Program-made: the position numbers and the translations under genes
The notes under the pieces: model-generated
Databases searched by the model: none
The model's input: only the letters and a program-made list of their open reading frames with translations
What the model was told of the DNA's origin: nothing
NCBI RefSeq assembly: GCF_030811455.1
Contig: NZ_JAUSQU010000001.1
Span: 8,928,001-8,992,000 of the forward strand
Origin: Streptosporangium lutulentum
GTDB taxonomy: Bacteria; Actinomycetota; Actinomycetes; Streptosporangiales; Streptosporangiaceae
Length of the DNA stretch: 64,000 nt
Direction of reading: 5' to 3'
In this document: positions 17,442-34,024 of the stretch, piece by piece
How positions within the stretch are numbered: the stretch's first letter is position 1
Layout of the letters: each line of letters starts with the position of its first letter

Positions 17442-17647
17442 GCCGCACGACCGGCCTGCAAGCGGATCTGTTCTCCGGCTGAACCCACCGCTGACCGGCG
17501 CACCCGCGCCGCCGACGTTCTCGGTGGGGACGCAACCGGGTGGGCGACGGCGCTCATGGGCGTCTGCCGTCGCGTATCGAAGTCGCGTATCAAAAACGCG
17601 CTCACCCGGTACTCGGCCGGTGGTCCGGATGTCTCGTCGGGCTCCCC

Positions 17648-17800
17648 TGCGGCGTCGAGATCGCCGACCGAGAGAACGCCGTCGTCACCCTGGCGCACCA
17701 GTCGGGGAGTCGCCGTCGGCTCCTGTCCGTGCCCGTTTTCTACGACTCGGACACGAAGAGGTCCGTGGTCTCCGGGCACCCTGCCCGCGCCGGGGCACTT
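17648..17800 (+). pseudogene. frameshifted partial copy of the tcpC-like gene
   Basis: The frame reads CGVEIADRENAVVTLAHQSG then SRRRLLSVPVFYDSDTKRSV, which matches YGIEVTDGQNAVVTLTYQSG / SRRQLLSVPVFYDTDTKKFV encoded at 19521-19650 in the intact gene downstream. Nucleotide identity over about 150 bp is roughly 80% by eye. At 17778 an 8-bp unit present twice in the intact gene (TCCGGGCG-type repeat) is present once here, shifting the frame; the match then continues as CCTGCCCGCGCCG. No homology to the rest of the gene remains nearby. Confidence 0.75.
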
Positions 17801-18085
17801 TTTCATGGACGGGTTTCCGCAGGTGGCGTCGAGGCGCGCGGATGCCGGGGCGAGCCGCGCGCGGTCCCCGATCACGACCTCGCCCGGCGCACCGCGTGCG
17901 CGGTGTTCTCCCTGCTCGGGGCAGGGGTATACATGATCACGCCGTTCCGGCGCATGATCCACGCCGTTCAAGAGGAGAGCCGGTCGGCGGATTGATCGAC
18001 ATCCCAGATCAGGCGGACACGCCCGGATGCTGCCAAGCTTGGTAACGATCACTTTGAGTAGTCACATGGATCCCACAGTGACGTA

Positions 18086-18529: not shown

Positions 18530-19048
18530 GCCGTACCGCCGCTTCCGGGCGAGGGTGAGATCCGAGCGTCCCGGCCGCCCCCTCGACGAAAGGACCGTGC
18601 CTTATTGCTGGATACAGCCTTGACATTCCCATTTGAGGGGGATCGCCCGGTCATCGGCCGCGTGCCCTCAGGCCACCCCCGGGCGCCGGGAGCTGGAGTC
18701 GCCCCACCGGCCTCATTCCGCCAAGTTGTGACGCTATGTGATGGCCTTCGCGTTAAATGTGCAGGTCGCGACATTGCGGGTGCTGTTTGGATAGCAATGG
18801 GTGGCGTTTCGGTAACCGGTCCCGGCGCTGGCCAGGGGTAACGCCCGATTGGGCCACGTGTCGGTGTGATAGCAGGTCCGGATGGATTCCAGACTCAGTT
18901 TGCTCAGTCACGACGATCCCTGCAGCATAGGCGTGGCTTTCCTGGAAGAATCAGCGGGGCGGCTAGAGTAAGTGCTTCACCATGGCTAACGGGATCGGCG
19001 GTAATACGACACCGCGTCGGCCGGGGGATTGGCGCGAGCGGAGGCGTG
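18530..19048. other. non-coding upstream region of the secretion operon
   Basis: About 520 bp with visibly lower GC than its surroundings, no convincing ORF and no oriT-like nicked inverted repeat that I can recognise. TAGAGT near 18965 is a possible -10 element but lacks a clear -35. The operon promoter probably lies here. Confidence 0.4.
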
Positions 19049-20077
19049 ATGGCTCGAAGGTCGACGGTCCAGCGTGATCCTCGGATCGCTGGCGACCCTG
19101 AGCTTTCGGCATACCCGGGTGCGCCCCACGACCCCGATTTCGACGGCGCTCCGGCGCGTGGGAGAGGTGCGTCGCCCCGGGGCCGATGGTCGGGCGGAGG
19201 CGGACGCTGGCTGGTGTGGACCGGCCGCGCAGTGCTTTGGGCCCTAATAGTGGTTATTGTCGTAAATGGGGTCCGTGCACCTTTTGAGCGATTTACTCAG
19301 CAGGGCACGCCCACCGGATCGGTGGCCGCTTCCACGAGCGGATTCCCCGTCACCCAGGGCACCTCTTTCGCGAGCCAGTTCGCCGCCGTCTATCTGAATT
19401 TCGAGGCCGTCCGCTCGCAGGAGAGGGAGGCGAGACTCGCCCCATTCCTGCCCGAGGGCGCGGAGCCCCAGTTCGGCTGGGACGGATTCGGCCATATGGC
19501 CGCGGGAGCTCTGCAACCGTACGGTATCGAGGTCACCGACGGGCAGAACGCCGTCGTCACCCTGACCTACCAGTCGGGAAGCCGCCGCCAGCTTTTGTCC
19601 GTGCCCGTCTTCTACGACACGGACACGAAGAAGTTCGTGGTCTCCGGGCGTCCGGGCATCCTGCCCGCGCCGAAGCCGGCGGACCTGCCTCCCCAGGGCG
19701 GGCCCGACCGTGACGAGGCCGCGGAGCTTGAGCTTCGCACCCCCCTCGCCGACTTCTTCAAGGCCTACGCGGCGAGCGACACCGCCTCCCTGCAGCGTTA
19801 TGCCGACGCCGGGGTCACCCTGGAGGGGTTCGGGGGGGCCTTCACCTTCGTGGAACTCAAGGATCTCGTCGTGCCGCTTCCCGGTGGCGCCACCCGGGAG
19901 GTGACCGCCACGGTCGTGTGGGGCGTTCCCGCGGGCGCGGCCCCGTCCGCCGATCCGACCTCGGACCCCGGAGACATGGGGGGGAAGCTGGAGCAGGCCT
20001 ACCTGCTCACTGTGGTCAAGCAGGGCGACAAGTGGTTCGTCAAGGGCATCCGCGGCGCCGAACGGTCCGTGGGGTGA
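19049..20077 (+). CDS. TcpC-like conjugal transfer protein
   Basis: 342 aa. A disordered, charged cytosolic N-terminus of about 55 residues is followed by one membrane helix (WTGRAVLWALIVVIVVNGV) and two extracytoplasmic NTF2-like domains, the architecture of TcpC, the VirB8-like scaffold of Gram-positive conjugation machines. The first domain contains FASQFAAVYLNFEA and VTLTYQSGSRRQLLSVPVFY; the second contains TPLADFFKAYAASDTASLQR and KQGDKWFVKGIRG. ATG 19049 has GCGGAGG 4 nt upstream. It is the first gene of the seven-gene T4SS-like operon; a decayed partial copy lies 1.4 kb upstream. Confidence 0.85.
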   Translation: MARRSTVQRDPRIAGDPELSAYPGAPHDPDFDGAPARGRGASPRGRWSGGGGRWLVWTGRAVLWALIVVIVVNGVRAPFERFTQQGTPTGSVAASTSGFPVTQGTSFASQFAAVYLNFEAVRSQEREARLAPFLPEGAEPQFGWDGFGHMAAGALQPYGIEVTDGQNAVVTLTYQSGSRRQLLSVPVFYDTDTKKFVVSGRPGILPAPKPADLPPQGGPDRDEAAELELRTPLADFFKAYAASDTASLQRYADAGVTLEGFGGAFTFVELKDLVVPLPGGATREVTATVVWGVPAGAAPSADPTSDPGDMGGKLEQAYLLTVVKQGDKWFVKGIRGAERSVG

Positions 20078-20213
20078 CCATGATCGAACGATGCCGGTCC
20101 ACAGTGAACACACCCCCCCTGATCGATGAGCCGCCAGTGGGGAAGCCGTGCGCGCGTGTGTCACGTTCCCATCACCGTCCGGCGGGCACGATCATGAGTA
20201 CGGAGGACGACAA

Positions 20214-20504
20214 GTGATTCTGAAAACCATGCTGCTGGGCGTGCTCGAACTCGCTCAGCCAACCGCTCCTCCGGCAGGCGTGAACACCGAGGGCCTCGCC
20301 GACTTCCTCCGCAGCTTCTTCGCCCCGCTCTTCCTGGTCATCGTCTCGGTGGTGGCCCTCTTCTTCCTCTTCACCCGTGAGATCACCAGGTTCGTGCAGT
20401 TCATCATTCTGGCGATCGCCATCGGAGTGATCTTCTACGTGCCCAACATCATTGAGGTGACGGCCAAGGCGATCGCGAGCGCGCTGGGCATCCGAGGGGA
20501 TTGA
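20214..20504 (+). CDS. small two-helix membrane protein (TcpD/VirB2-like)
   Basis: 96 aa. It has an amphipathic N-terminus, then two membrane helices (APLFLVIVSVVALFFLFT and FVQFIILAIAIGVIFYVPNI) and a short Ala-rich C-terminus (VTAKAIASALGI). In Tcp-type loci a protein of this size and topology follows tcpC; VirB2-type pilins also have this form. Which it is cannot be decided by sequence. GTG 20214 is set by GGAGG at 20202-20206. Confidence 0.75.
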   Translation: MILKTMLLGVLELAQPTAPPAGVNTEGLADFLRSFFAPLFLVIVSVVALFFLFTREITRFVQFIILAIAIGVIFYVPNIIEVTAKAIASALGIRGD

Positions 20505-20552
20505 GACCGCCTCCAAGCGGTCAAACAAGGAGAGGCGGAAAAGGAGGAGCGC

Positions 20553-23282
20553 GTGGACCTGCCCACGTATACCAATATCTGGCGGATCGAGAAGCGGCTC
20601 TACAAGCTGTACGACCTACGGCTGCCGATGCCGCTTCCGATTGTCTGGATCGGTGGGTTCGTGGGTGTGCTGGCGCCGTGGTCGCTGCTGCTCTACCTGG
20701 TCGGCCTGCCCTTCGCCGCGCCCTGGCACGTGGTGTATCTGGTGCCGCCGGGCATCGTCACCTGGCTCTCCACCAGGCCGGTCATCGAGAGCAAGCGGCT
20801 CACCGAACTGCTCCAGTCGCAGATGCGTTACGTGGGCGAACCGCGCACCTGGTGCCGGATGGCCCCCGCCCACGAGCCCTCCGAGATCACGTTGACCGGC
20901 CGGGTGTGGCAGGCCGCGCCGCAGCAGGCGGCCTCGGTTCGGGCCAAGGTCTCTCGCAAGGCCCGTCACGCCCAGTCCAAGTGGGCCGCCGTCGCCTCCG
21001 CCCGCCAGGTTCGTCCCGCCGTGGCAGCCGCCGCGGCGGCTGCCACGGCCGCTCCGGTCACCGGCGAACGCATCGCCTGGGGTACGGTGGCCCGTCCCCG
21101 GAAGGGCACCGCCCCGGCTCTCGGCCAGGCCGTCGCCCCCGAGAGGTCCCCGCTGGTCGTGCCGGTCGGCTCCGCCCTCTCCGCGTCCCCCCTCACCCCC
21201 GCGTCCCCTCCACCTGTGACGGTGGTTCCGCCTTCCGCGTCCGTTCCCGGGGCGCCCGCAGGGAGGGGTTCCCTCACCCCGGCCGTACGGACTCCCGTCG
21301 CGCGGTTGAAGGCTCCGGCCGATCCGGCTCCCGCCGAACCCCCTTCCACGGGTGGGCAGACTCCCGCCGAACCCGCTTCCACGGGTGGGCAGGCTCCCGC
21401 CGCACCGGCCGAACCCCTCTCTCCGGGTGGGGCGGATCCGGCCGCCTCGACGGCCTCGGACGCGCCGGTCGCTCCGATCGGCACCGAGGCGTTGAAGCGG
21501 CTGCGCCGGCTCGCGGCCTCCGCCGAAGCCGAGCGTGGCGTTCCGTCCGTGCCCGACCGGCCCTCGCCGCACGCCACGTCTGCCGCGCCCGCTGCACCGG
21601 CCGCGTCCGCCGGGCCTTCCGCGCCCGCCGCACCCGCCGCGTCTTCCGCGTTCGCCGAGCCCGCTGCACCCGCTGCACCCGCCGGGCCTTCCGCGCCCGC
21701 CGGGCCTTCCGTTCCGGCCGTGCCGGCGGCTCAGCAGGCTCAGGTCCCCGACCCGCGTCCGAGCAGGACCTCGAGCCGCGACCCGGTGGAGACACCGGCC
21801 GCGGCCCTGACCCCGGACCCGGCCGAGACACCGGCTCAGACCCAGGTCCCCGCCCCGGCGGAGAGCCAGGATCAGGCCCAGGCCCAACTCCGGGCACCGG
21901 GCAAGGCCCAGACCCAACCCCAGTCCCCGACTCAGCCCCAGAGCCAGTCCCAGGCGCGACCCCGGGGCCGGGACGCGACTCCGGCGCGGGCTCCCCGGCG
22001 TCCCGATCCCGCCGAGCGGCCCGCGATCGTGCCCGACCCCGTCGAGCGGCCCTCCACCCCGGCCGCCCCCTCCATCGTGCCGAGGTTCGTCGGGCCCATT
22101 CCGATCGGACTGCGCGCCTCCGAGCAGGGGAGTGCTCCCGCGGAGACGGACGAGAGCGCGTGGGCTCAGCATCGCAAGGGGCAGCCGGTGGGCAAGCCCG
22201 CCGAGCCGCCGAAGACGTGGCCGTCCGAACGGTCCGCGGGGATGCCGGCGAACATGTCGATCCGCGCGGTCCCCTCGGCGTCCGCGGCCAAGGCCGATCC
22301 CGTGACGCCCTCGGTGCCGGTGCCCAGGCCCGGCCACGAGGAGACCAGGGTCCGCCGGGTGGAGTCGGTCGTCGGCCGCGACTCCTCCGGCGGGTGGCGG
22401 AGGCTCGCCCAGGTCGTCATCGGACCCGGCGGCGGAGGCCGTACGGACGGGTCGGAGGTCGACGAGGCGCGCGCCAGGGCGGTGTTCAGCGGCAGCCGGC
22501 GGGTGGTCGTGCTGGGCTGCACCGGCGGTGCGGGGCAGACCACGACCGCGCTCATGCTCGCCCACACCTTCGCCCGGTACCGCGAGGACCGGGTGCTCGC
22601 GGTCGACGCCAACATCGGCGCCCACGCCCTGTCCGGCCGGATCCAGGTCGAGTCCCCCGAGACCCTGAGCTCCCTGCTGTCCGGACTGGACAACGTCCAC
22701 GGCTATCTGGGCATGCGCGCCTACACCAGCCGTTGCGCCTCCGGTCTCGAAGTCCTCGCCGGAGACGCCGACGCCGGTGCCGAGCAGCGGCTCTCCGACC
22801 GCTCGCTCTTCTCCGACCGGCGGCTCGGCCAGACCATGGACATGCTGGACCGGCACTACAAGCTGATGGTCGTCGACCCGGCGGCGGCACTGGCCGCGCG
22901 GGTGCTCCCCTACGCCGACCAGCTCGTCCTGGTCGTTCCGGCCAGCGAGGACGGGCCGGACGCGGTGGCCATGACCTACGAATGGCTTGACGGACACGGC
23001 TGCGCGGACCTCCGGCAACGGGCGATCATGGTCGTCAACGGGGTGAGTCGTCGAAGCATGGGCGACGTGGAACAGGCGGAGGCGGTCGCGCGGGGCAGGT
23101 GCCGGGCGATCGTACGGGTGCCCTGGGAGGACGAGCTGGCCCCCGGCAGATCCAACAGGGTGGAGCCGTCCCATCTGCGGACACCGGGCCGCCGGGCGTA
23201 TCTCGCCCTGGCCGGGGTCGTGGTGGCGGGTTTCGGAGCGGTGCAGGTGGCTCGACCCAGCGAGGAGGAATTGGCTCAGTGA
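20553..23282 (+). CDS. TcpE-MinD/EspI-like fusion protein
   Basis: 909 aa in three parts. Residues 1-130 are a TcpE-family membrane module (TNIWRIEKRLYKLYDLRLPM, two helices around 27-72, then STRPVIESKRLTELLQSQMR). Residues ~130-645 are a Pro/Ala-rich disordered linker. Residues ~648-909 are a MinD/ParA-type domain (DRVLAVDANIGAHALSGRIQ; LMVVDPAAALAARVLPYADQ; AIMVVNGVSRR) whose order resembles mycobacterial EspI. The deviant Walker-A reads TGGAGQTTT at 657-665: the signature Lys is Thr657 and the P-loop Lys is Gln662, so ATP hydrolysis is doubtful. It probably docks the secretion channel at the membrane. The linkage of these two families in one chain is the most distinctive feature of the locus. 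Confidence 0.85.
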   Translation: MDLPTYTNIWRIEKRLYKLYDLRLPMPLPIVWIGGFVGVLAPWSLLLYLVGLPFAAPWHVVYLVPPGIVTWLSTRPVIESKRLTELLQSQMRYVGEPRTWCRMAPAHEPSEITLTGRVWQAAPQQAASVRAKVSRKARHAQSKWAAVASARQVRPAVAAAAAAATAAPVTGERIAWGTVARPRKGTAPALGQAVAPERSPLVVPVGSALSASPLTPASPPPVTVVPPSASVPGAPAGRGSLTPAVRTPVARLKAPADPAPAEPPSTGGQTPAEPASTGGQAPAAPAEPLSPGGADPAASTASDAPVAPIGTEALKRLRRLAASAEAERGVPSVPDRPSPHATSAAPAAPAASAGPSAPAAPAASSAFAEPAAPAAPAGPSAPAGPSVPAVPAAQQAQVPDPRPSRTSSRDPVETPAAALTPDPAETPAQTQVPAPAESQDQAQAQLRAPGKAQTQPQSPTQPQSQSQARPRGRDATPARAPRRPDPAERPAIVPDPVERPSTPAAPSIVPRFVGPIPIGLRASEQGSAPAETDESAWAQHRKGQPVGKPAEPPKTWPSERSAGMPANMSIRAVPSASAAKADPVTPSVPVPRPGHEETRVRRVESVVGRDSSGGWRRLAQVVIGPGGGGRTDGSEVDEARARAVFSGSRRVVVLGCTGGAGQTTTALMLAHTFARYREDRVLAVDANIGAHALSGRIQVESPETLSSLLSGLDNVHGYLGMRAYTSRCASGLEVLAGDADAGAEQRLSDRSLFSDRRLGQTMDMLDRHYKLMVVDPAAALAARVLPYADQLVLVVPASEDGPDAVAMTYEWLDGHGCADLRQRAIMVVNGVSRRSMGDVEQAEAVARGRCRAIVRVPWEDELAPGRSNRVEPSHLRTPGRRAYLALAGVVVAGFGAVQVARPSEEELAQ

Positions 23283-23392
23283 TCCCCCGGGCACGAGGAG
23301 ATGTGGTGGACGGGCGTGACGAGATTCAGGTGAGTGAGCGAACCGGCAGGCGCGAAGGTCTGGCCGTACGGTCGACCGAGGAGGCCGGGTGA
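23279..23392 (+). CDS. possible 37-aa coupled small ORF
   Basis: GTG 23279 overlaps the TGA of the TcpE-MinD gene (GTGA), and its own TGA (23390-23392) overlaps the GTG of the VirB4 gene (again GTGA). GAGGAGG lies about 10 nt upstream. The 37-residue peptide is charged (ends EGLAVRSTEEAG) and matches nothing I know. Without it the two flanking genes would have a 106-bp gap in an otherwise tightly spaced operon, so it may be real or a translational relay. Confidence 0.35.
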   Translation: MIPRARGDVVDGRDEIQVSERTGRREGLAVRSTEEAG

Positions 23393-25881
23393 GCCGTGCG
23401 TCGCGGGCGAGCAATCGCCTCGCCGTCCGATACTTCGACGACCGGATCCTGCTTACCGAATCGTCGGTGTGGGCCTACTTCCGGCTGCCCACGGTGAGCT
23501 ATGAGTTCGTCACGCCCGAGGAGCGGGAGGCGCTGGCCACCAACATCACGATCGCGCTGGCCACGATCAGGATGCCGGACGCGGAGGTTCACCTGCGTGT
23601 GGCGCACCGCACCTATCCTGCGGCCGAGTGGGCGATGGCGCTGAACGCCACCTCCGACGAGGGCGCCGGCTGGCGCGACTACCTGGAGGAGATGTACCGG
23701 CACGTCTGGGCCAAGGACTTCTGGAGCAAGGAGGTCTATCTCGGCGTACGGCTCGGCGCCCGCGGGCGGCAACTGGGCGAGGGGGTGCTCTCCCAGCTCC
23801 TGGGCTTCTACCAGCGCAGCGAGAAGGCCCTGGGCATCGAGGACGACCACGTCCCGACGGCCGAGATCGCCCGGTGGACCGAGCAGGCGGAGCGGCTCGG
23901 CAGGGCGTTGTCGTCCAGCGCCCTGTACGCCAGGCACGCCACCTCGGCCGAGATCGCCTGGCTGTTCCAGCACGCCGCGACCGGTTCCCTGGGTGACCCG
24001 CCGGCCTCGGCCAGTCCCAAGCGGCGGTGGGGCAGGGGCGAGATCGAGTCCCTGGTCGAGGGGCAGATCCACAACGGCAGGTCGCTGCTGCGGATCGAGC
24101 AGACATACGGCGACTCCTACGTCGCGCACCTGTCCTTCGCCCGGTTCCCCGACCTCATGCCGTTCCCCGACGGCGAGCCGTGGATGCACTTCGCCGACCA
24201 GATGCCCTTCCCCGTGGAGGTCAGCTCAAGGATGCGGCTGATCCCGCCGGTGAAGGCCAGCAAGGACGTGGCGCGCAAGCTCGCCCACGCCCGTGACATG
24301 GACATCCACATCCGGGAGGCGGGAGCGGAGGCGCCGCTGGCGCTGGCCGAGCAGATCGACGCGGCCAGGATGCTGGAACACGGCATCACCAAGGAGCGCC
24401 TGCCCTTCGTGTACGGCTGGCACCGGCTGATCGTGTCCGCCCCGACCGAGGAGATCTGCGTGCAGCGGGTCGAGGCGGTCGTGGAGCACTACCGCGACAT
24501 GGGCATCGATATCGTCAGCTCCACGGGCGACCAGTTCTCGCTGTTCTGCGAGACCCTGCCGGGCGAGAAGGTCCGCGTCAACGCCTACGCCCAGCGGCAG
24601 CCGCTGCGCACCATCGCGGGCGGCATGGCGACCGCCACCGTGGACCTGGGCGACCGGGTCGACGAGAGCAACGCCGGCTGGATGGGACCGTACATCGGGG
24701 AGAGCCTGGGCCGTGCCCGGAGCATCGTGCACTTCGACCCGCTGGTGGCGGCCACGCGTAACCGGCCGACGGCCATCGCGATCACCGGTGAGCCGGGCGG
24801 AGGCAAGACCACGCTGGCGCTGCTGATGATCTATCAGATGGCGCTGCGCGGTGTGACGATCGCGGTCATCGACCCCAAGGGCGACGCCGACTCCCTGGTG
24901 CAGTTGCTGCAGAGCCGGGGCAGGAAGGCGCGGATCATTCCTCTCGGTTCGGCCGCGCCGGGCCTGCTCGACCCGTTCTCGTTCGGCGACGACCTCGCGG
25001 CCAAGAAGACGATGGCCACCGAGACCCTGCGCCTGCTGCTGCCGCGCATGTCGGAGGAGCGCGAGTCGGCCATGATCCAGGCGGTCGCGGCGGTCTCGAA
25101 CGCCGAGGATCCCTCCCTGGGCAAGGTCGTCGACTTCCTGGAGCACACCGAGGACGCCGCCTCGAAGAACCTGGGCGCCGTGCTCCGCTCGATGTCGGAG
25201 ATGCACCTCGCCCGGCTCTGCTTCGACCCCTCCGGCGGCGACCAGATCGACACCGAGGGCTGGACCACGGTCTTCACCCTCGGGGGCCTGACCCTCCCCG
25301 ACGCCTCCACCGGACGTGACGACTACTCCTACGAGCAGCGGCTGTCGGTGGCGCTGCTCTATCTGGTCGCGCAGTTCGCGCGGGGCCTGATGAACGGCCT
25401 GGACCGGCGGACCCCCAAGGCGATCTTCCTGGACGAGGCGTGGGCGATCACCTCCACCCCCGAGGGCGCCAAGCTGGTGCCCGAGGTGAGCCGGATGGGC
25501 CGTTCCCGCAACACCGCGCTGGTCCTGGTCTCGCAGAACGCCGGCGACCTGCTGAGCGAGCAGGTGACGAACTGCCTTTCCTCGGTGTTCGCGTTCCGGT
25601 CCACCGAGCGGGTCGAGGTGGAGCACGTGATGGCGTTGCTCGGGGTCGAACCCTCCGAGGAGCACAAGGCGGTGCTGCGCTCGCTGGGCAACGGCGAGTG
25701 CGTCTTCCGGGATCTGGACGGCCGCGCGGGCCGGATCGGGGTGGACCTGATCTCCGATGACCTGCTGCGCTGGCTCGATACGAATCCGACCCACGACAAA
25801 CCCGATGAGAACGTGCATGATCTGCTCGGGGGCGACAGAGTCAGTAGGCCGGGGGCTGCGGCGCTGGAGGTGCGGTCATGA
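23389..25881 (+). CDS. VirB4/TcpF-type conjugation ATPase
   Basis: 830 aa. The N-terminal half (1-430) is the VirB4 assembly domain; the C-terminal half is a RecA-like motor with Walker A GEPGGGKTT (467-475), Walker B AIFLDEAWA (Asp682-Glu683) and the downstream motor motifs RNTALVLVSQNAGDLLSEQ. This is the energising ATPase of the T4SS channel. GAGGAGG precedes the GTG start, and the stop codon overlaps the next gene's ATG (ATGA). No FtsK-type coupling protein accompanies it. Confidence 0.92.
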   Translation: MSRASRASNRLAVRYFDDRILLTESSVWAYFRLPTVSYEFVTPEEREALATNITIALATIRMPDAEVHLRVAHRTYPAAEWAMALNATSDEGAGWRDYLEEMYRHVWAKDFWSKEVYLGVRLGARGRQLGEGVLSQLLGFYQRSEKALGIEDDHVPTAEIARWTEQAERLGRALSSSALYARHATSAEIAWLFQHAATGSLGDPPASASPKRRWGRGEIESLVEGQIHNGRSLLRIEQTYGDSYVAHLSFARFPDLMPFPDGEPWMHFADQMPFPVEVSSRMRLIPPVKASKDVARKLAHARDMDIHIREAGAEAPLALAEQIDAARMLEHGITKERLPFVYGWHRLIVSAPTEEICVQRVEAVVEHYRDMGIDIVSSTGDQFSLFCETLPGEKVRVNAYAQRQPLRTIAGGMATATVDLGDRVDESNAGWMGPYIGESLGRARSIVHFDPLVAATRNRPTAIAITGEPGGGKTTLALLMIYQMALRGVTIAVIDPKGDADSLVQLLQSRGRKARIIPLGSAAPGLLDPFSFGDDLAAKKTMATETLRLLLPRMSEERESAMIQAVAAVSNAEDPSLGKVVDFLEHTEDAASKNLGAVLRSMSEMHLARLCFDPSGGDQIDTEGWTTVFTLGGLTLPDASTGRDDYSYEQRLSVALLYLVAQFARGLMNGLDRRTPKAIFLDEAWAITSTPEGAKLVPEVSRMGRSRNTALVLVSQNAGDLLSEQVTNCLSSVFAFRSTERVEVEHVMALLGVEPSEEHKAVLRSLGNGECVFRDLDGRAGRIGVDLISDDLLRWLDTNPTHDKPDENVHDLLGGDRVSRPGAAALEVRS

Positions 25882-28454
25882 TGGGCTCCCGCAAAGGGCT
25901 GAAGAGTTCGGGCGCAGGGCCGAAAGGCTCCGGCAAGGAGAAGAAGGGCTCCCGCAGGAGGCGGCTGGGCAGGCGGATCGCCATCGGGCTGGTGGTCCTG
26001 TCCGCCTTTCTCGCGCTGCCGCTGGTGTTCCCGGCGGAGACGTCCACCGCCGTCGCCGCCGCGCCCTGCGACCTCTCGCCGGACCTGGCTCCCGAGATCG
26101 TCGGCGGAGGCGTGGACGGACTGCTCCAGCCGCCGCCTCCGGACGCGCCCGCAGCGGGTGCCCCGGCCGCCGCCCCGGCGGCGCCCGACCCCGCCGCGCA
26201 GGGCAACTACGCCAGGTACGGCATGAGCGGCCAGTTCTGGCACACCCACCTGCTCGGCTGTGACGACGTCGCCGCGGTGATGGGCAACGCCATGGCCAAC
26301 ACCGTCTTCTCCTGGGCCAAGGCCCTGGACCGGCTGACCATCACCACCTACCAGGCCGCGGCCACCGAGGGCCCGCTGGACTCGATCAAAAACGTCGTCG
26401 ACGACATCGTGACCCGCCTGTCCGACGCGCTGTACTGGCCCTACCTGCGGCCGATCGTGATCCTCGGGGCCATCTGGCTGGCCTGGTACGGCCTGATCCG
26501 CAAGCGTGCGACCACGACCGCCGAGGGCGTCATCTGGATGGTCCTCGCGGTGACCGTGGCGGTCTGGTTCTTCAGCCGCCCCGGTGACTTCACCGGGCTC
26601 GGCAAGACCGTGACCGACGCGACCGGAGAGGTCGTCAACTCCGCCTTCTCCGGGCTGCCCGGTGCCGGCGGGGCGACGTGCATACCGGGCAAGGACGATG
26701 CCAACCCCCAGGCCAAGGCCGGCGGATACGGGCAGCAGGGCGTTCCCGGCGTCGACCAGAACGCCGACGCGCTCTGGTCCATCCTGGTCTGCAAGCCGTG
26801 GCTGATGGGCGAGTTCGGCACGGCCGACCCTAACGCCCCCGTGGTGAAGACGATGGCGCCCAGGCTGCTGGACATCCAGGCGCTCGACGCGACCGAGCAG
26901 CAGGCCACCGAGACCATCGGCACCAGTGCCCACCAGGCGCGGTACACAACGGAGGTCGCGGACAAGCTGCAGAACACCCCGATCTTCTTCCTCTTCCAGG
27001 GCAAGGACTGGACGAACCGGCTGGGGGTCGCGATCGGCGCGCTGATGGCAGCGCTGATCGCCGGGTTGCTGATCTTCCTGGTGGCGATCTCGCTGCTGGC
27101 GCTCAAGGTCGGATTCCTGCTGTTACTGATACTCGCGCCGGTCTTCCTGCTGATCGGCGTCCATCCGGGGTCCGGCCGCATCATCGCCATGCGCTGGGTG
27201 GAGATGGTGATCGGCACCCTGCTCAGGCAGGCGGTGCTCGCCCTCGTCCTGGGCGTGCTGATCTACGGATACGCGTTGATCATCTCCATGGCGATGCCAT
27301 GGGGCATGCAGGTCATGTTCATGGCGCTGCTGACGATCGCGGTGTTCTTCTACCGGCGGCCGTTCCAGCACCTGTTCTCGTCCATGGACGGGCACACGCT
27401 CACCACCCGGATGCTGGGCGAGGCGGCCAGCGCTCCGACCCTGCAGAGGGCGGCGGGCGCGCTGCCACCGGTCGCGGCGGCCAGGGCGGGCCGCTGGGGC
27501 ATGCGGAAGGCGGAGCCCGTGCTGCAGGCGGCGGCGATCGCCGGCGGCGCCTCCGTCGCCACGGCGGCCGCGACGGTCGCGCAGGGCAAGGTACGCGGCG
27601 AGGAGGGCGGCGGCTCGGCGACGGGCACCCCCTCGGGCGCCCGCGTCCCGGCCGGCGCGCAACCGGCGCCGCTGGACACCGACGCGCAGGCGGGCGGCCG
27701 GCGCAAGAACACGGGCCGTCCGGTGACCGCGGCGCGTCCGGGCGCGGCGCCGCCGCTCAACCTCTCCGGTGCGGGTAAGGCGGGCAGCACGACTCCGACC
27801 AGGTCCGGAGGTTCTCCCGCACGCGGCGGGGGCGGCTGGTTCAGCGGTCGCTCCGGCGGCTGGGCTCCCCAGGGCGGTTCGGGGTCGGGCGGCGGATCCT
27901 CCGCGGCTCCCTCCTCGGGCGGCAGGTCCTCCATCCCCTCCTCCGGCGGCGGGAGATCCTCGGCGCCCTCGGGCGGCGGGTCCTCCGCGCCTTCCCTGGG
28001 CGGCAGGTCCTCCGCGCCCTCCTCTGGAGGCGGCCGGTCGGGCGGGAGCATCTTCGGAGGCGGCGGTTCGCGTCGTTCGGAGTCCGGTTCGTCGCGAGGC
28101 GGCTCCGGCTCGGGATCGCAGAACGGCGGCTCCCGGAACCCCTCTCGGTCCGGCGGCAGCATCTTCGGAGGCGGCTCGGGTTCCTCGCGGTCCGGTGGCA
28201 GCGTGTTCGGCGGCGGTTCCGGCGGCTCCGGTGGTTCTTCGAGGTCCGGAGGCTCTTCGCGGTCCGGCGGTTCCTCGCGGTCCGGCAGCAGCGTGTTCGG
28301 CGGCGGCTCCGGTGGCTCTTCGAGAAACGACGGGGCGGGGCGCCAGGACAGGTCCGAGGCGCCTCCGCTCTGGGTGCCCAAACGGTCGGAGCGAGGCAGG
28401 GAGGCCGATGAGGCGGCCGCGCCGTTCTGGCTCCGCCCACGTAGCAAGGATTGA
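25878..28454 (+). CDS. VirB6/TrbL-like polytopic protein with FG-repeat tail
   Basis: 858 aa. A basic N-terminus and signal-anchor (AIGLVVLSAFLALPLVF) lead to an extracytoplasmic segment and about seven further membrane helices (e.g. YLRPIVILGAIWLAWYGLI; LALKVGFLLLLILAPVFLLI; AVLALVLGVLIYGYALII), as in VirB6/TrbL inner-membrane channel proteins. From about residue 640 to the end the chain is Ser/Gly/Arg-rich with repeated SGGSIFGGG / SGGSVFGGG units. It overlaps the virB4 stop codon (ATGA). The repeat tail is cytosolic or periplasmic depending on helix count, and is unlike VirB6 proteins I know. Confidence 0.82.
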   Translation: MMGSRKGLKSSGAGPKGSGKEKKGSRRRRLGRRIAIGLVVLSAFLALPLVFPAETSTAVAAAPCDLSPDLAPEIVGGGVDGLLQPPPPDAPAAGAPAAAPAAPDPAAQGNYARYGMSGQFWHTHLLGCDDVAAVMGNAMANTVFSWAKALDRLTITTYQAAATEGPLDSIKNVVDDIVTRLSDALYWPYLRPIVILGAIWLAWYGLIRKRATTTAEGVIWMVLAVTVAVWFFSRPGDFTGLGKTVTDATGEVVNSAFSGLPGAGGATCIPGKDDANPQAKAGGYGQQGVPGVDQNADALWSILVCKPWLMGEFGTADPNAPVVKTMAPRLLDIQALDATEQQATETIGTSAHQARYTTEVADKLQNTPIFFLFQGKDWTNRLGVAIGALMAALIAGLLIFLVAISLLALKVGFLLLLILAPVFLLIGVHPGSGRIIAMRWVEMVIGTLLRQAVLALVLGVLIYGYALIISMAMPWGMQVMFMALLTIAVFFYRRPFQHLFSSMDGHTLTTRMLGEAASAPTLQRAAGALPPVAAARAGRWGMRKAEPVLQAAAIAGGASVATAAATVAQGKVRGEEGGGSATGTPSGARVPAGAQPAPLDTDAQAGGRRKNTGRPVTAARPGAAPPLNLSGAGKAGSTTPTRSGGSPARGGGGWFSGRSGGWAPQGGSGSGGGSSAAPSSGGRSSIPSSGGGRSSAPSGGGSSAPSLGGRSSAPSSGGGRSGGSIFGGGGSRRSESGSSRGGSGSGSQNGGSRNPSRSGGSIFGGGSGSSRSGGSVFGGGSGGSGGSSRSGGSSRSGGSSRSGSSVFGGGSGGSSRNDGAGRQDRSEAPPLWVPKRSERGREADEAAAPFWLRPRSKD
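27795..28340 (+). repeat. Ser/Gly/Phe repeat tract in VirB6-like gene
   Basis: Degenerate repeats based on TCCGGCGGCAGC.TCTTCGG encode S-G-G-S-I/V-F-G-G-G at least four times, with SSRSGG spacers. The tract is in frame throughout. Confidence 0.8.
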
Positions 28455-28456
28455 CG

Positions 28457-29128
28457 ATGAACGAAGGCGGCAACCGGCGAGGACTCGTCTTCGCGGTGCT
28501 GGTGGCGATGCTCGCCGCGGTCGGGATCTATCTGACCATGGGCTCGGGTTCCGGCGGCGAGCAGCAGGAGTCGGCCGAGCCGGTGGGCGTGAGCCGTACC
28601 GTGCCCGGATCGCCGGAGCCGGTGGGCGCCGAGTCGCCGCGTCCGTCGGCGACGGCCAGCGACGCGCCCTTCGACGTCTACTCCTACCTGCCGATGAACA
28701 AGCAGGAGCTGGCCGCCGCCGCCGACTTCGCCCAGCGGTTCACAGCCGAGTACGGCACGTTCAGCTACGACGAGGACCCGGCGGCCTACGGCAGCCGGCT
28801 GGAGGGATACACCACGGCCGAGTTCGCCGACGTGCTGCTGCGCACGGTCACCTCACCGGGCATCGTCGAGGCGAACAAGGCCGACCAGGTCGTCTCGGTC
28901 GGGGCGGCGCGGGTGAAGTCGATCCGGCAGGTGAACAGCGCCTCGGTGGTCTTCGTGGTCGTCGGCACCCAGAACGTCACGGCCAAGAGCGGGGTGAAGG
29001 AACGGGTCGAGGAGTACGCCGTCACACTCATCGAGGTCGGCACCGACTGGCGGGTCCACGACCTACAGCCGGCGGACTCCGGCCAGGAGGGAGACGACCA
29101 GCCCGTGGAGACCGGCGGAACGGAATGA
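28457..29128 (+). CDS. single-pass VirB8-like conjugal transfer protein
   Basis: 223 aa. One N-terminal membrane helix (GLVFAVLVAMLAAVGIYLT) and a Ser/Pro/Glu linker are followed by a ~130-residue extracytoplasmic domain (LAAAADFAQRFTAEYGTFSY ... VEEYAVTLIEVGTDWRVHDL) with the helix-then-sheet order of NTF2/VirB8-like domains. ATG 28457 has AAGGA 6 nt upstream and starts 2 bp after the preceding stop. It lies directly before the wall hydrolase gene. Assignment to a T4SS role rests mainly on context. Confidence 0.72.
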   Translation: MNEGGNRRGLVFAVLVAMLAAVGIYLTMGSGSGGEQQESAEPVGVSRTVPGSPEPVGAESPRPSATASDAPFDVYSYLPMNKQELAAAADFAQRFTAEYGTFSYDEDPAAYGSRLEGYTTAEFADVLLRTVTSPGIVEANKADQVVSVGAARVKSIRQVNSASVVFVVVGTQNVTAKSGVKERVEEYAVTLIEVGTDWRVHDLQPADSGQEGDDQPVETGGTE

Positions 29129-29141
29129 ACGGCGGAACCGT

Positions 29142-30230
29142 ATGACGGACAACAAGAAGGTCCGCCTCGCGCTCATCTTCGCCGTGGCGCTGCTCTGCCT
29201 GGTCACACTGGTCATGGCGCCGATGTTGATGATGAGCGGCTTCCCGTCCCTCACCGGGCAGCAGGCGGCCGACTGCGAGGAGAACGCCCAGGCTTCGGGC
29301 GACGAGTCCGAGACGGCGGCGTCCGACATCCCCGAGGAGTATCTGAAGCTTTACCGTGAGCACGGCGAGAAGGTCGGCGTGCAGTGGAACGTGCTCGCCG
29401 GGGTCGGCAAGCGCGAGACCAACCACGGCCGCTCCACGCTGCCCGGCGTGCAGAGCGGCACCAACTACGCCGGGGCCGCCGGTCCGATGCAGTTTCTGAT
29501 CAGCACGTGGGGCGGCAAGGCGAAGATTAAAATTCCGTCCCAGTTCAACGGTTACGCCTCCGACGGCGACGGAGACGGCTGGGCCGATGTGTACAACCCG
29601 GCGGACGCCATTCTAGGCGCGGCGAAGATGCTCAAGCGGAACGGCGCGCCGGAGGATGTGCGGCGCTCGCTGTTCGTCTACAACCGGGCCTGGTGGTACG
29701 TGGACCAGGTCATGGAGATCGCCGGGAAGTACGCCAAGGACGGCGAGGTCAGCGTTCCGCCGCAGGCGCAGGGGGTCTGTGACGGCACCCTCCTGGAGGC
29801 GGCGCCGAGCGGCACGGTCGCCGGGATCATGCAATACGCACTGGCCCAGCGTGGCAAACCCTATATCTGGGGTGGCACGGGGCCTGCGGGCTACGATTGC
29901 TCGGGGATCATCTACATGGCCTACCGGAGCGTCGGCCTGACCATTCCCCGCACCACATTCGGTCAGTGGCCGTTCGGGGTGGACGTTCCAGCGGGGCAGG
30001 AACAGGCCGGGGACCTGGTCTTTTTCAACTCCGGTCCGGGTACGGGCCCCAACAATCCCGGGCACGTGGGCATGGTGGTCTCACCCGGCAAGATGGTCGA
30101 GGCCAGGTGCACCCTGTGCGGGCCGATCAAGGTCACGTCCTACAGGGAACGGACCGGCATCATGGGGTTCACCCGGCCGCTGCAGAATCCTCAGGTCCTC
30201 GCCCAGCTCAAACTGAAGGAGCAAGGTTGA
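29142..30230 (+). CDS. bifunctional SLT transglycosylase-NlpC/P60 wall hydrolase
   Basis: 362 aa. A signal anchor (LALIFAVALLCLVTLVMAP) is followed by an SLT-like lytic transglycosylase domain (GVGKRETNHGRSTLPG with the likely catalytic Glu; AGAAGPMQFLISTWGG) and a C-terminal NlpC/P60 peptidase with Cys253 (GYDCSGIIYMAYRSVGL) and His308 (NPGHVGMVVSPG). This is the TcpG/Orf14-type enzyme that opens peptidoglycan for the secretion channel. The ORF is 11 bp after the VirB8-like gene. It cleaves both the glycan strand and the peptide stem, by family knowledge. Confidence 0.92.
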   Translation: MTDNKKVRLALIFAVALLCLVTLVMAPMLMMSGFPSLTGQQAADCEENAQASGDESETAASDIPEEYLKLYREHGEKVGVQWNVLAGVGKRETNHGRSTLPGVQSGTNYAGAAGPMQFLISTWGGKAKIKIPSQFNGYASDGDGDGWADVYNPADAILGAAKMLKRNGAPEDVRRSLFVYNRAWWYVDQVMEIAGKYAKDGEVSVPPQAQGVCDGTLLEAAPSGTVAGIMQYALAQRGKPYIWGGTGPAGYDCSGIIYMAYRSVGLTIPRTTFGQWPFGVDVPAGQEQAGDLVFFNSGPGTGPNNPGHVGMVVSPGKMVEARCTLCGPIKVTSYRERTGIMGFTRPLQNPQVLAQLKLKEQG

Positions 30231-30631
30231 CACCATCGGATCCCAAGATCGTTGTGGGGGCCGCGATCGTCGACGCCGCCGGGAGGCTGCTCGCCGCCCA
30301 GCGTGCGGAGCCGCCCGAGCTGGCCGGCGGGTGGGAGTTCCCCGGCGGGAAGGTCGACCCGGGAGAAGACGATCACACGGCGCTGGTCCGGGAGTGCCAG
30401 GAGGAGCTCGGGGTCCTGGTCAAGATCGGCGAGCAGATCGGCGGCGACTGGTCGCTGGCGGGCGGTCACGTTCTCAGGGTCTGGCTGGCGGAGATCGCGG
30501 AGGGGGAGCCGGAGGCCAGGGAGCACCTGGCTCTGCGTTGGCTCAGCGTTGACGAGTTCTATGACGTGCCGTGGTTGCCGGCAGACCTTCCGATCGTGCG
30601 GGCCTTTCAGGAGTACCTCAACGAGCATTGA
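30227..30631 (+). CDS. Nudix hydrolase (MutT-like)
   Basis: 134 aa. The Nudix box is canonical: G-x5-E-x7-R-E-x2-E-E-L-G (GGKVDPGEDDHTALVRECQE followed by ELGV). The protein resembles CTP-/8-oxo-dGTP pyrophosphohydrolases (GGWEFPGGK; LRWLSVDEFYDVPWLPADL). The TTG start at 30227 overlaps the previous stop (TTGA) and has AAGGAG 5 nt upstream, so it is coupled to the wall-hydrolase gene; GTG 30254 is a weaker alternative. Its link to secretion may be only transcriptional. Confidence 0.9.
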   Translation: MTPSDPKIVVGAAIVDAAGRLLAAQRAEPPELAGGWEFPGGKVDPGEDDHTALVRECQEELGVLVKIGEQIGGDWSLAGGHVLRVWLAEIAEGEPEAREHLALRWLSVDEFYDVPWLPADLPIVRAFQEYLNEH

Positions 30632-30708
30632 GGGGAAACTCTGCGCCACACATCGATTACTGTAAGTGTCGATGTTGCATGTCCGTATCGGGGGATCGGA
30701 GAAGTGCA

Positions 30709-32499
30709 GTGACCGAATGGTGGCGAGGTGCCCGGTTCATATCAGCGGTGGGAACGGGGGTGCTCCTCCTGGGCGGCCCGTCGGCGGTATACGCCGACGG
30801 ACCGCCGGGATCCGGCTCGTTTCCTCTCGACCTGACGACCGGCTCCAGCGCGGGGGCGCGATGGCAGCCCTCCGGCGACATGGTCCGGTTCCGGGTGCGC
30901 GTGGAGGGGCCGGGGACCGACGCGCGGCTGGCGGTCGTCACGACGCCCGCCGGCGCGCTCAGGGGCATCGAGTGCCCCGACGCGACAGGCAGCCGGGTGC
31001 CTCTCCCGGAAGGCCTGCAGGTGTGCAGGGTGGGTGACGTCGGCCAGGGCAAGTCCGTGGACGTACTGCTCGACATGCCGGAGAACACGCAAGACGTCAC
31101 GCTGACCGCCGTGACCCGGATGCGGGCGCCCGGCGGCGAGATGGTGACCAGGAAAGCGGAGAGCACGGTCCGGAGCCAGGCCGCCGTCCCCGAGACGGAG
31201 GCAGGTGAGCAGGCCGGGGAAGAGGCCCGCTCCGACATGCTCAACCCCGGGCCCGGCGTGGTTCCCAGGCTCCCGGGGGTCTTCGACGCCCCGAACGGCT
31301 TGGGAGCCTTCGGGATGCGCGAGACGGCGCCCAAGATGCCTGAGCTCTCCGAGGCCGAGACGGCCGACATCCTCAAGGCGCCCGAGAGCTCCACCGAAGG
31401 ACTCGTCACCGCGGACGGCACGAGCGCCGCGGACGGCACGGGTGCCGAGGGCGGTGCGGGTGTCGCGGACGATACGAGCGCCGCGGACGCGGAGAAGGCG
31501 GCCCTGGCCGCCATCGTGGAGGTCCTCGACAGGTCGTTCCCGCCGGCGAACGCTCCGGTGGAGGCCGGGGCGCCGGCGGCCGAGAGCCGGACGCCTTCGG
31601 CTCCGGCGGAGGCGGTCGCGCCGTTGGGCACGCCGGCGGACGAGACCGCGGGAGTCCCGGTGGGCCCGCGGGCGCAGACCGTGCCATCGGACCCGCGGGC
31701 GGAGGCCGCTCAGGGCGGCCCCCAGGCGGGCGAGAGCGCGCCGGTGCTTGGGCCCCCCGCACCTCAGGGAACGGCCCCGCGTCCCGAAGGGGGGCCGGGA
31801 GTCCTTCCGCGCCCCGAGGCGGCGCCGGGAGCCGGGCAACTCGCGCCGAAGCCTCCGGTCTCGGCGGACTTCGGAAGCATGGCGCCGGGCGCCGCGCCGG
31901 ACCCGAAGGCGGGCCTGCCCGGCGGTGCGGGGCAGGGCGGCTCGGGAGGAGCCAAGGGGCACCCTCCCATGCTCCGCAAGCCGGGGATGACGGGTGGAGG
32001 GGTCAAGGGCCCGGCGGCCGGGCGGCAGATGCCCATGCCGCAGATGCCCCAGATGCCCATGCCCCAGATGCCGATGCCTCCGATGGCCGGGCCGCAGATG
32101 GCTCCACCACAGATGATCGTGCCGCAGATGGTCGGACCGCAGATGGCGCCCCCGGCGGGGCTGATGGGACCGATGGGACCGATGCCGCCGGCCGGGCAGG
32201 GAATGGCGCCCAACCCGATGAACGGCTCCGCCATGCAACTGCCGCCGGCGATGCCGTCACCGGCGTCGGTCATGTCGCAGCCGCTGGGAACCACGGCCGA
32301 CGCGCAGCTCCAGGGAGCGCCGCTTCCCCGGGACGTGGACGGTCCGAACACGGACATCACGCCGGCCGCCCAGTCGAGTTCGCTGCTCACAGGGATGCGG
32401 GGCCTTCCGGCGGTGGGGATCGCGATGGCGGCACTGCTGGGGCTGCTCTGGCTGCAGATGAAGATAAGGCGTCGCCGCGCAGCGCGACCCGTTTTGTAA
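30709..32499 (+). CDS. secreted, C-terminally anchored Pro/Met-rich protein
   Basis: 596 aa, family unknown. A signal peptide (FISAVGTGVLLLGGPSAVYA) is followed by a ~130-residue folded domain with one Cys pair (RGIECPDATG; LQVCRVGDVG), then a long Ala/Pro/Glu disordered region, a Met-rich stretch (units of MPMPQMPQMP, residues ~440-490) and a C-terminal membrane helix with a basic tail (KIRRRRAARP). The topology is that of a surface protein with a short cytosolic end. GTG 30709 has GGAGAA 8 nt upstream; ATG 30679 is an alternative. It follows the T4SS operon by 77 bp. Confidence 0.65.
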   Translation: MTEWWRGARFISAVGTGVLLLGGPSAVYADGPPGSGSFPLDLTTGSSAGARWQPSGDMVRFRVRVEGPGTDARLAVVTTPAGALRGIECPDATGSRVPLPEGLQVCRVGDVGQGKSVDVLLDMPENTQDVTLTAVTRMRAPGGEMVTRKAESTVRSQAAVPETEAGEQAGEEARSDMLNPGPGVVPRLPGVFDAPNGLGAFGMRETAPKMPELSEAETADILKAPESSTEGLVTADGTSAADGTGAEGGAGVADDTSAADAEKAALAAIVEVLDRSFPPANAPVEAGAPAAESRTPSAPAEAVAPLGTPADETAGVPVGPRAQTVPSDPRAEAAQGGPQAGESAPVLGPPAPQGTAPRPEGGPGVLPRPEAAPGAGQLAPKPPVSADFGSMAPGAAPDPKAGLPGGAGQGGSGGAKGHPPMLRKPGMTGGGVKGPAAGRQMPMPQMPQMPMPQMPMPPMAGPQMAPPQMIVPQMVGPQMAPPAGLMGPMGPMPPAGQGMAPNPMNGSAMQLPPAMPSPASVMSQPLGTTADAQLQGAPLPRDVDGPNTDITPAAQSSSLLTGMRGLPAVGIAMAALLGLLWLQMKIRRRRAARPVL

Positions 32500-32575
32500 A
32501 AGGCGCTTTGCTGTTACTTTTGCCCAACTAGTATCTCCTTGGCATGTTTGTATGGGGATTTCTCGGAGGGCACCG

Positions 32576-34024
32576 GTGACGCGAGCACGGCGTACGGCAG
32601 CTGTCACCGCCGTTGTCATGTCCCTGGGACTGAGCGGAGCAGTACTGCTCGCAGTCGCTCCGCTCGTCGGTCCCCTTCGGGCGGACGCGGCCGTCAGGAT
32701 GGTCGCGGCGGAGCCGTCGCCGATTCCCTCGTCGATCCCGGGATGCGACGCCGATCCGGCGGGTCCGTGTGATGAGGAGCCCACCCCGGTCGTCACCGTC
32801 ACGACCACCCTCCCGGAGGAACCCCCCGCCACCTCCCCGGTGCCGCAGAAGACCGTGACCACCACGATCACGGTCCCGGGGACGACGCCTCCCGCGACCA
32901 CGGCCCCGCCGGCGACGAACCTTCCGGTCGAGCCGCCGCCCACGGCGGCGCCCGTCGTCCCGCCTCCGGCCAACACGCCGCCGCCGAGCGAGGAGCCGGA
33001 GGTCGAGTTCCCTCCTTCTTCCGAGGAACCGACCATCCCCGCCGTCACGCCGCCGCCGAGCGACACCCCCACGGCGGCGGTGGAGACCGCACCGCCGACC
33101 TCCGAGCTCTATGAGATCCGCAACGCGGGCTCCGAGTTCGACGGCGCCGGGCTGAGTCGCCAACTCGGCATCCCGGCGCTGATCCTGGTCCTGATGGTGC
33201 TGTTCGCCGTACTGATCTTCGAGGGCAGGCTGCGCCGTTTGACCCACGCCGCCGCCATCCGCCGGGCCGGTCCCCGAGGGCTGTCCCGCGATCCCATGGG
33301 ATATCCCGCGGGTCCCGGCTACGGATCAGCACCGGGCTACCCGCACGGGGCCTACCAGGGCGGTACGGCCTACGCTCCGATCATCAGCTTCGTTCCGATG
33401 CAGATGTACGCCCCCGTCTACCCCGAGGGCTACTCGCCGGAGCAGTACGACCAGTCGTACGCCCAGACCCCGGAGCAGTACCAGCAGCAGTACGGGCAGG
33501 TACCCGAGCAGTACCAGCAGTACGGCCAGCAGACGGCCCACATGCCGGCACCGGGTCACGAGCAGACGGCCCGCGGCCCGGAGGGCCACGACGCCCCGCC
33601 GTCCGCCTCGCCTGACCAGGGCGTTCCGCCGTACGGCGGCCCCGGCCTCCAGGGAGATCGTTTCCTGCGGGAGCCGCGTGAGATCCAGGGAGCACCGTTC
33701 CCCCACGAGCCCGGAGAGTTCCCCGGGGCACCGGAGCCGGTGTGGCCCGGTGACGAACGGCCCTCCGATCGCCTCCCTGATGATCTGCCCGGTTCGGAGC
33801 CTCAGGGCGGCCGGCCCTCGCAGAGATCCGGCGAGCCCTCCGCGTTCGACGCCGCGCCTCAGGGAGACCGTTCCCCGCAGGGGCCGACGGGTCAGGACGG
33901 CCCCGGCCAGGAGCCGTTCGCGGGTCCGAAGCCTCCCGCCGACCCCACCGGCACGGCGGTCTACCCGCTTCCCGGCCAGGACGTGGACAAGAAGAAGCGC
34001 GGTCTGTTCCGCCGTTCCAAGTAA
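32576..34024 (+). CDS. secreted single-pass protein with Pro/Thr stalk and Gln/Tyr-rich tail
   Basis: 482 aa, family unknown. A signal peptide (AAVTAVVMSLGLSGAVLLAV) is followed by a Pro/Thr/Val extracellular stalk (VTVTTTLPEEPPATSPVPQK; likely glycosylatable), one membrane helix (ALILVLMVLFAVLIF) and a cytosolic tail containing Gln/Tyr-rich repeats (PEQYDQSYAQTPEQYQQQYG), ending in KKKRGLFRRSK. GGAGGG 5 nt before GTG 32576 sets the start; ATG 32552 is possible. It has the same general layout as the preceding gene, and the two may act together. Confidence 0.65.
   Translation: MTRARRTAAVTAVVMSLGLSGAVLLAVAPLVGPLRADAAVRMVAAEPSPIPSSIPGCDADPAGPCDEEPTPVVTVTTTLPEEPPATSPVPQKTVTTTITVPGTTPPATTAPPATNLPVEPPPTAAPVVPPPANTPPPSEEPEVEFPPSSEEPTIPAVTPPPSDTPTAAVETAPPTSELYEIRNAGSEFDGAGLSRQLGIPALILVLMVLFAVLIFEGRLRRLTHAAAIRRAGPRGLSRDPMGYPAGPGYGSAPGYPHGAYQGGTAYAPIISFVPMQMYAPVYPEGYSPEQYDQSYAQTPEQYQQQYGQVPEQYQQYGQQTAHMPAPGHEQTARGPEGHDAPPSASPDQGVPPYGGPGLQGDRFLREPREIQGAPFPHEPGEFPGAPEPVWPGDERPSDRLPDDLPGSEPQGGRPSQRSGEPSAFDAAPQGDRSPQGPTGQDGPGQEPFAGPKPPADPTGTAVYPLPGQDVDKKKRGLFRRSK

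Follow-up and report, generated by a model that had tools for sequence, protein, structure and literature searches.

A conserved fusion of a TcpE secretion subunit with a MinD-like domain lacking both Walker A lysines in Streptosporangium lutulentum and its relatives

What does a type IV secretion system (T4SS) do with a MinD-like domain that has lost both of its Walker A lysines and is built into one of the membrane subunits? This question is raised by the gene at 20553..23282 (+ strand) of the 64,000-nucleotide stretch of Streptosporangium lutulentum DNA analyzed here (the window; genome size, 10.6 Mb). Direct reading of the sequence gave one open frame of 909 aa, free of internal stops, with a GTG start that lies five bases behind the sequence AAGGAGG (20541-20547). 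Third-position G+C ranged from 0.68 to 0.98 along this frame in 150-base steps. The gene and its parts are as follows.

20541..20547, + strand: AAGGAGG, likely ribosome-binding site (direct sequence reading)
20553..23282, + strand: TcpE::pseudo-MinD fusion gene, 909 aa, GTG start (frame reading and orthologues)
20565..20861, + strand: TcpE (VirB3-like) membrane domain, residues 5-103 (Pfam PF12648, E=1.1e-18; hydrophobic windows inside residues 22-64)
20862..22349, + strand: Ala/Pro-rich linker, residues 104-599 (A, 23%; P, 19%)
22350..22484, + strand: conserved lead-in ahead of the MinD-like domain, VRRVESVVGRDSSGGWRRLAQVV... (invariant alignment columns)
22485..23279, + strand: MinD-like domain, a predicted pseudo-ATPase, residues 645-909 (Pfam CbiA, 25.0 bits; subfamily alignments)
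22515..22541, + strand: degenerate Walker A, G655 C T657 G G A G Q662 T663 (Q662 in 109/109 and T657 in 107/109 loci)

A preliminary description of the window had proposed that a single frame joins TcpE to a MinD-like domain through a linker of about 500 residues, and both the frame reading and the Pfam matches confirmed this architecture. In the profile search of the two halves, TcpE scored well over its curated cut-off (67.9 versus 29.9 bits, residues 5-103), while the CbiA (MinD/ParA) match at residues 652-771 fell marginally below its own (25.0 versus 25.4 bits; E=2e-5). Profile matches of the MinD-like domain in the PDB were to VpsO (E=2.4e-4) and to McdA-type chains (E=0.0019-0.0032). 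Judged by these matches, the C-terminal domain is a homologue of the MinD/ParA deviant Walker A ATPases, and it would be expected to share the MinD fold. In the lead-in, R27, R28, E30, and G39-R42 are invariant columns of a 67-row alignment (A2) that holds close relatives only. A conserved hydrophobic C-terminal anchor was considered and rejected, as the hydropathy window reached 1.91 here and exceeded 1.6 in only 11 of 109 orthologues.

The fusion is real and conserved. With the family holding Streptosporangium coded f1, and two other families of the order sample coded f2 and f3, exactly one match at E<=1e-60 was found in 98 of the 101 genomes of that sample (f1, 97/97; f2, 1/1; f3, 0/3). The TcpE profile was found in 10 of the 148 genomes of the class sample, all of them f1; in an eleventh f1 genome of that sample (G018), the gene is truncated at a contig end. 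The locus was then fetched from 109 genomes (108 f1 and one f2). TcpE and the MinD-like domain lie in one open reading frame (ORF) in 98 of these loci; of the remaining 11, a contig end truncates 7 and a frame change in the linker interrupts 4. In these four split orthologues the overlap between the TcpE and MinD frames is long, which places the change of frame inside the linker, and an organization as two separate genes was rejected. A frameshift artefact was likewise rejected for S. lutulentum itself, where the frame is single and without an internal stop. The distance from the TcpE match to the MinD-like domain varied from 290 to 1764 aa (median, 758) among the 98 fused orthologues. The domain of S. 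lutulentum is 98% identical to that of Streptosporangium subroseum, and Gln662 was read in all 109 fetched loci and in three further ones (L015, L021, and L026), giving 112 of 112 related genomes; this count comes from profile and protein matches and excludes 80 named loci found with a pattern that itself contains the P-loop. The presence of Gln662 throughout, together with the fusion in 98 of 109 loci, indicates that the arrangement is not an oddity of one genome.

Next, the nucleotide site was compared with that of lysine-bearing homologues. The P-loop reads GCTGGAGQT, with Thr657 at the signature-lysine position and Gln662 at the P-loop-lysine position, as had been claimed at the outset; the KGGxGKT motif that defines MinD/ParA ATPases is therefore absent. 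A domain that is homologous to these ATPases but fails their defining motif is classed here as a pseudo-MinD variant, and the whole protein as a TcpE/VirB3 subunit with a built-in pseudo-MinD. Among relatives outside f1 and f2, P-loops were read at 21 distinct places, which cover part of the 50 non-f1 genomes with a match, and all 21 read KGG[VT]GKT. The lysine set used for alignment comprised 20 domains (16 places from relatives, two paralogues from the S. lutulentum genome, and two from Nocardiopsis plasmids), with five lysine places (L066, L068, L070, L073, and L076) omitted. Against this set, the 109 Gln domains carry nearly fixed switches at five nucleotide-site positions: K→T657 (107/109), K→Q662, D→G689, G→A777, and T→A778. 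The five switches occur jointly, each at 95-100% in both sets, and two more (S→G655 and L→C656) lie directly before the P-loop. Thr/Ser663, Asp685, and Asp775 were kept in 109/109 Gln domains; we take Thr/Ser663 to be the usual Mg ligand and Asp775 to be the Walker B Asp. The motif N829-G-V-S-x-R834-S835 is invariant in all 109 and variable in the lysine set. Asn687 was rejected as a subfamily-specific residue, being present in 19 of the 20 lysine homologues as well. In a tree of the domain with one locus per genus code (three for genus g26), a single branch parts the Gln rows from all 20 lysine rows (35 versus 20 rows; Shimodaira-Hasegawa-like approximate likelihood ratio test [SH-aLRT], 100). 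The Gln codon is CAG in 97/97 of the loci counted (97 of the 109), where neighboring Gly, Ala, and Thr positions vary synonymously.

The suggestion in the preliminary description that hydrolysis had been lost was strengthened by these comparisons: the replacement of other active-site positions in step with the lysines makes it likely that the C-terminal domain no longer hydrolyzes ATP, and it may bind nucleotide without turnover. The joint replacement at the nucleotide site, together with the new invariant residues, suits a domain that lacks hydrolysis yet is strongly constrained.

The fusion gene lies in a T4SS cluster, as the Pfam and NCBIfam matches of its neighbors show, which supports the reading of TcpE as a T4SS domain in the preliminary description.

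18866..20077, + strand: TcpC/VirB8-like protein (Pfam PF12642, E=5.7e-13)
20148..20504, + strand: small membrane protein at the tcpD position (NCBIfam TcpD, E=0.04, far below cut-off; gene order as in a Niallia plasmid)
23389..25881, + strand: TcpF/VirB4-type ATPase with GEPGGGKT intact (Pfam AAA_10, E=3.6e-66; NCBIfam TcpF, E=2.9e-72, below cut-off)
25878..28454, + strand: VirB6/TrbL-like membrane protein (Pfam TrbL, E=4.4e-8; NCBIfam CD3337/EF1877, E=2.7e-23, below cut-off)
28451..29128, + strand: second TcpC/VirB8-like protein (Pfam TpcC, E=2.3e-4, below cut-off)
29142..30230, + strand: VirB1-like wall hydrolase, SLT plus NlpC/P60 (Pfam NLPC_P60, E=1.5e-18; SLT_2, E=2e-6)
30571..32499, + strand: proline-rich, secreted-looking protein 3' of the cluster, putative member (similar ORF in 24/109 loci)
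32552..34024, + strand: second proline-rich, secreted-looking protein, putative member (similar ORF in 37/109 loci)

Thus, VirB1-, VirB3-, VirB4-, VirB6-, and VirB8-like genes are all present, which is the gene set of the T4SSs of mating-pair formation class FA (MPF-FA), although the matches of the second VirB8-like and the TcpD-like proteins are weak. The fusion gene is directly upstream of the VirB4 ATPase gene, the position expected of tcpE, and the Niallia plasmid has the order conjugal transfer gene, small gene, TcpE, and ATPase, with a lytic transglycosylase/C40 peptidase further on. The VirB4 Walker A motif GEPGGGKT is intact in 109/109 loci. VirB6 was found in 84 of the 109, with all 25 misses among the 27 g26 stretches (L251-L277; virB6 in 2/27). 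Genus g26 likewise accounts for 17 of the 19 loci in which the second TcpC was missed (found in 90) and for 27 of the 29 in which the wall hydrolase was missed (found in 80). In the g26 loci inspected, extra genes widen the gap that separates the fusion from virB4, and the fetched stretches stop early. Outside g26, stretches of sufficient length agree with the order tcpC-tcpD-tcpE-virB4-virB6-tcpC2-nlpC. Neighbor positions were taken as the starts of stop-to-stop ORFs, so neighbors appear swapped in some loci.

Whether this is a conjugative or a cellular machine was approached through gene content and genomic setting. Nine proteins of the cluster were scanned, and none matched a coupling-protein or relaxase family above its curated Pfam cut-off. 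A search of 12 near-complete genomes gave PF02534 in 6 of them, PF12696 in 8, PF03432 in 4, and PF08751 in 1; four of the genomes (G003, G207, G220, and G217) lack all of these coupling-protein/relaxase families searched, yet each has kept the locus. The 109 fetched stretches also contained ychF (in 69), rmuC (in 42), ispH (in 22), and sdhB (in 13), while leuDH and asnC, neighbors in S. lutulentum, occur in 0/109, the stretches (that of S. lutulentum included) ending before they are reached. One strong match per genome, chromosomal neighbors, and the dispensability of the four DNA transfer families together favor a vertically inherited machine of the cell. We infer that the T4SS is vertically inherited and probably nonconjugative, with a cellular task. 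In a survey that reported 17 putative T4SS-type integrative and conjugative elements in 275 actinobacterial genomes, the main text makes no mention of Streptosporangium (PMC3218068, as available).

Related machinery occurs on plasmids. Two Nocardiopsis plasmids (NZ_CP099838.1 and NZ_CP080600.1), both typed as nonmobilizable, encode a VirB4 that is 70-73% identical to that of S. lutulentum, a separate TcpE of 169 and 158 aa, respectively (56-58% identical), and, within the cluster, a separate MinD/ParA protein with an intact KGGVGKT; a third Nocardiopsis plasmid, NZ_CP074136.1, appears among the matches listed. The MinD/ParA genes lie at 21228-22373 in one plasmid locus (L292), beside a gene with a VirB6-like match below cut-off, and at 19186-20736 in the other (L293). 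It had been held that homologues with the P-loop lysine and without the linkage would count against the fusion. Such homologues do exist on these two plasmids, but the finding is not removed: in the tree, the plasmid MinD proteins group with the lysine clade, so theirs is an alternative arrangement and the conserved Gln fusion stands. In a VirB4 tree of 92 rows (87 genus-coded loci and five plasmids, not all 109 loci), plasmid VirB4 stood next to genus g26 (SH-aLRT, 94), with saturated outgroups. In a 40-row tree, sampled by genus code like the domain tree, the plasmids fell in an unresolved fork, and a tree grouping them with the outgroups was not rejected (approximately unbiased test, p-AU of 0.723).

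On balance, we favor the reading that the locus encodes a chromosomal, vertically inherited T4SS whose VirB3-position subunit bears a non-cycling MinD-like docking domain. Its single-copy arrangement in related genomes suggests a channel for the cell's own use, guided by a noncatalytic domain. Several observations weigh against this reading. At least one of the four coupling-protein/relaxase families is present in 8 of the 12 near-complete genomes, S. lutulentum included, and FtsK-type PF01580 matches were found in all four genomes that lack the four families, so that a TcpA-like coupling protein could be encoded elsewhere in them. The region around the P-loop of VirB4 itself matches TraD-type coupling-protein models, although below cut-off. 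Two loci (L200 and L202) showed ispH or rmuC in inverted orientation, and no ychF was seen there. Two Nocardiopsis plasmids bear a related machine, and either the plasmid or the chromosomal form may be the ancestral one. Lastly, McdA has Ser at the signature-lysine position and an unusually high ATPase activity (available text of PMC6328274), so that a missing signature lysine does not by itself settle the matter; the solved McdA-type chain 6noo retains the P-loop lysine in the alignment.

Some of these points bear on the alternative that this is an ordinary conjugation system, within an integrated or formerly integrated element, in which the MinD-like domain positions the transferred DNA as VirC1 does in Agrobacterium. 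Gene content like that of the plasmid T4SS clusters of Niallia and Streptomyces, the close relatives on Nocardiopsis plasmids with an intact MinD gene of their own in the cluster, and the coupling-protein/relaxase families found somewhere in 8/12 genomes all fit it, as does the role of VirC1, a MinD-like ATPase, in promoting relaxosome nucleation (PMC3297438, in the portion available). We nevertheless consider it unlikely, given one strong match in each of the 98 f1/f2 genomes sampled, ychF in 69/109 stretches, nine cluster proteins without a relaxase or VirD4-type match above curated cut-off, and the genome-wide absence of the four families in 4/12. A different alternative concerns the domain: Gln662 and Thr657 might allow binding and slow, noncanonical hydrolysis, so that it cycles like MinD/ParA and positions the channel as an active nucleotide switch. 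This has in its favor the retention of Thr/Ser663, Asp685, and Asp775 in 109/109 and the activity of McdA without its signature lysine (PMC6328274, same text); it is made quite improbable by the replacement of both lysines, in step with which D689, G777, and T778 of the lysine clade have changed.

The label EspI-like, given in the preliminary description, implies a hybrid of a T4SS with a type VII secretion system in which an EspI-type sensor domain gates secretion by ATP level. EspI has been implicated in negative regulation of ESX-1 at low ATP (PMC8339072, citing Zhang 2014; available text), which is the attraction of this alternative. The S. lutulentum genome has two lysine homologues (L283 and L284), both with KGGVGKT and 35-36% identical to the MinD-like domain, and each of the 25 f1 genomes of one search had one or more additional matches at E<=0.001, with motifs read in part only. 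No Pfam match to an ESX family was found among 8 neighbors of the two paralogues scanned, out of 22 predicted; as 5 of the 8 matched nothing, this is weak evidence on an ESX link. With the residues needed by a hydrolyzing sensor also gone, we regard an EspI-type sensor as very improbable. Scarcely credible is a decaying, nonfunctional remnant held in place through its fusion to TcpE: catalytic residues have been lost and linker length is highly variable, as decay would predict, but over the 109 genomes many positions are strictly invariant, new invariant motifs have appeared, and codons vary synonymously, all of which speaks against it.

To describe how a non-cycling docking domain could serve the channel, a working mechanism is proposed. 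The N-terminal TcpE domain would serve as a membrane anchor and keep the protein next to the VirB4-type ATPase, a location suggested by analogy with the published VirB3-VirB4 pairing. The long arm, probably disordered, would carry the MinD-like domain to cytosolic partners. There the domain, with Thr/Ser663, Asp685, and Asp775 kept, most likely acts as a docking platform that does not cycle, and it may recruit to the channel either a substrate or a MinD paralogue whose catalytic site is intact. Such docking or pairing could allow the channel to be placed or opened. A broader proposal, possible but tentative, is that a T4SS derived from a conjugation system has been retained throughout the f1 family as core cellular machinery untied from DNA transfer, with the dead pseudo-MinD on the VirB3 subunit as a receptor. 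By pairing with intact MinD paralogues, this receptor might position or gate the channel, for instance in hyphal septation or sporulation, although such a developmental role is only a guess.

In known systems, TcpE is most likely the VirB3 homologue and is encoded just upstream of VirB4 (available text of PMC12857230). The TcpE/VirB3 proteins of the Gram-positive MPF-FA T4SSs (pCW3, ICEBs1 ConC, and ICESt3 OrfE) are like the fusion in their PF12648 domain and their position immediately upstream of VirB4. VirB3-type proteins are described in the same text as having 10-15 kDa and two membrane helices, whereas the S. lutulentum protein has 909 aa and a MinD-like domain; it is thus not the small stand-alone membrane protein that TcpE usually is, and neither are the 98 fused orthologues among the 109. 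The Nocardiopsis plasmid T4SS shares SLT, VirB6-like, and MinD/ParA genes with the S. lutulentum cluster but has an unfused TcpE and a KGGVGKT MinD. VirC1 of Agrobacterium is likewise MinD-like and serves a T4SS; unlike the domain described here, it is a separate protein at the relaxosome (PMC3297438, a comparison by description). McdA and the other ParA/MinD ATPases are homologous by sequence profile, and unlike them the S. lutulentum domain has neither lysine. EspI of ESX-1, a secretion system regulator that responds to low ATP, is also likened by description (PMC8339072); the S. lutulentum cluster is a T4SS.

No description of a TcpE-MinD fusion, or of a T4SS fixed in the f1 family, was found in open-licence literature at the level of titles and abstract openings. 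Gram-positive T4SSs have been studied mainly as DNA transfer machines, an exception being the Saccharibacteria T4SS, which is described as essential (PMC12857230, in the part available). One T4SS per sampled genome of the family, with an invariant pseudo-ATPase beside its motor, points to a cellular function without assignment in the literature found, and such a function is testable through deletion of one gene. The natural contrast between a fused, Gln-bearing, chromosomal form and a separate, Lys-bearing, plasmid form bears on how ParA/MinD proteins serve secretion systems.

Some minor observations remain. The products of 30571..32499 and 32552..34024 matched no family in Pfam, NCBIfam, or PHROGs. 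Membership in a defense system was rejected, since five proteins scanned in PADLOC gave weak or generic matches only. FtsK-type matches at G217:C1:99801-100283 and G003:C1:2625378-2625668 belong to open frames that are 592 and 500 aa long, respectively, and are possible unlinked coupling ATPases. The record NZ_LT559118.1 (L296; Nonomuraea gerenzanensis) is labeled plasmid I in PLSDB, and its size of 11.85 Mb suggests a chromosome. Upstream of the cluster, the segment 17645-17792 (+ strand, inside ORF 17540-17995) encodes 46 residues that are 72% identical to residues 218-263 of the first TcpC (tblastn, E=1e-18), and its DNA is 82% identical to tcpC over 146 bases; it is apparently a decayed, partial copy of tcpC.

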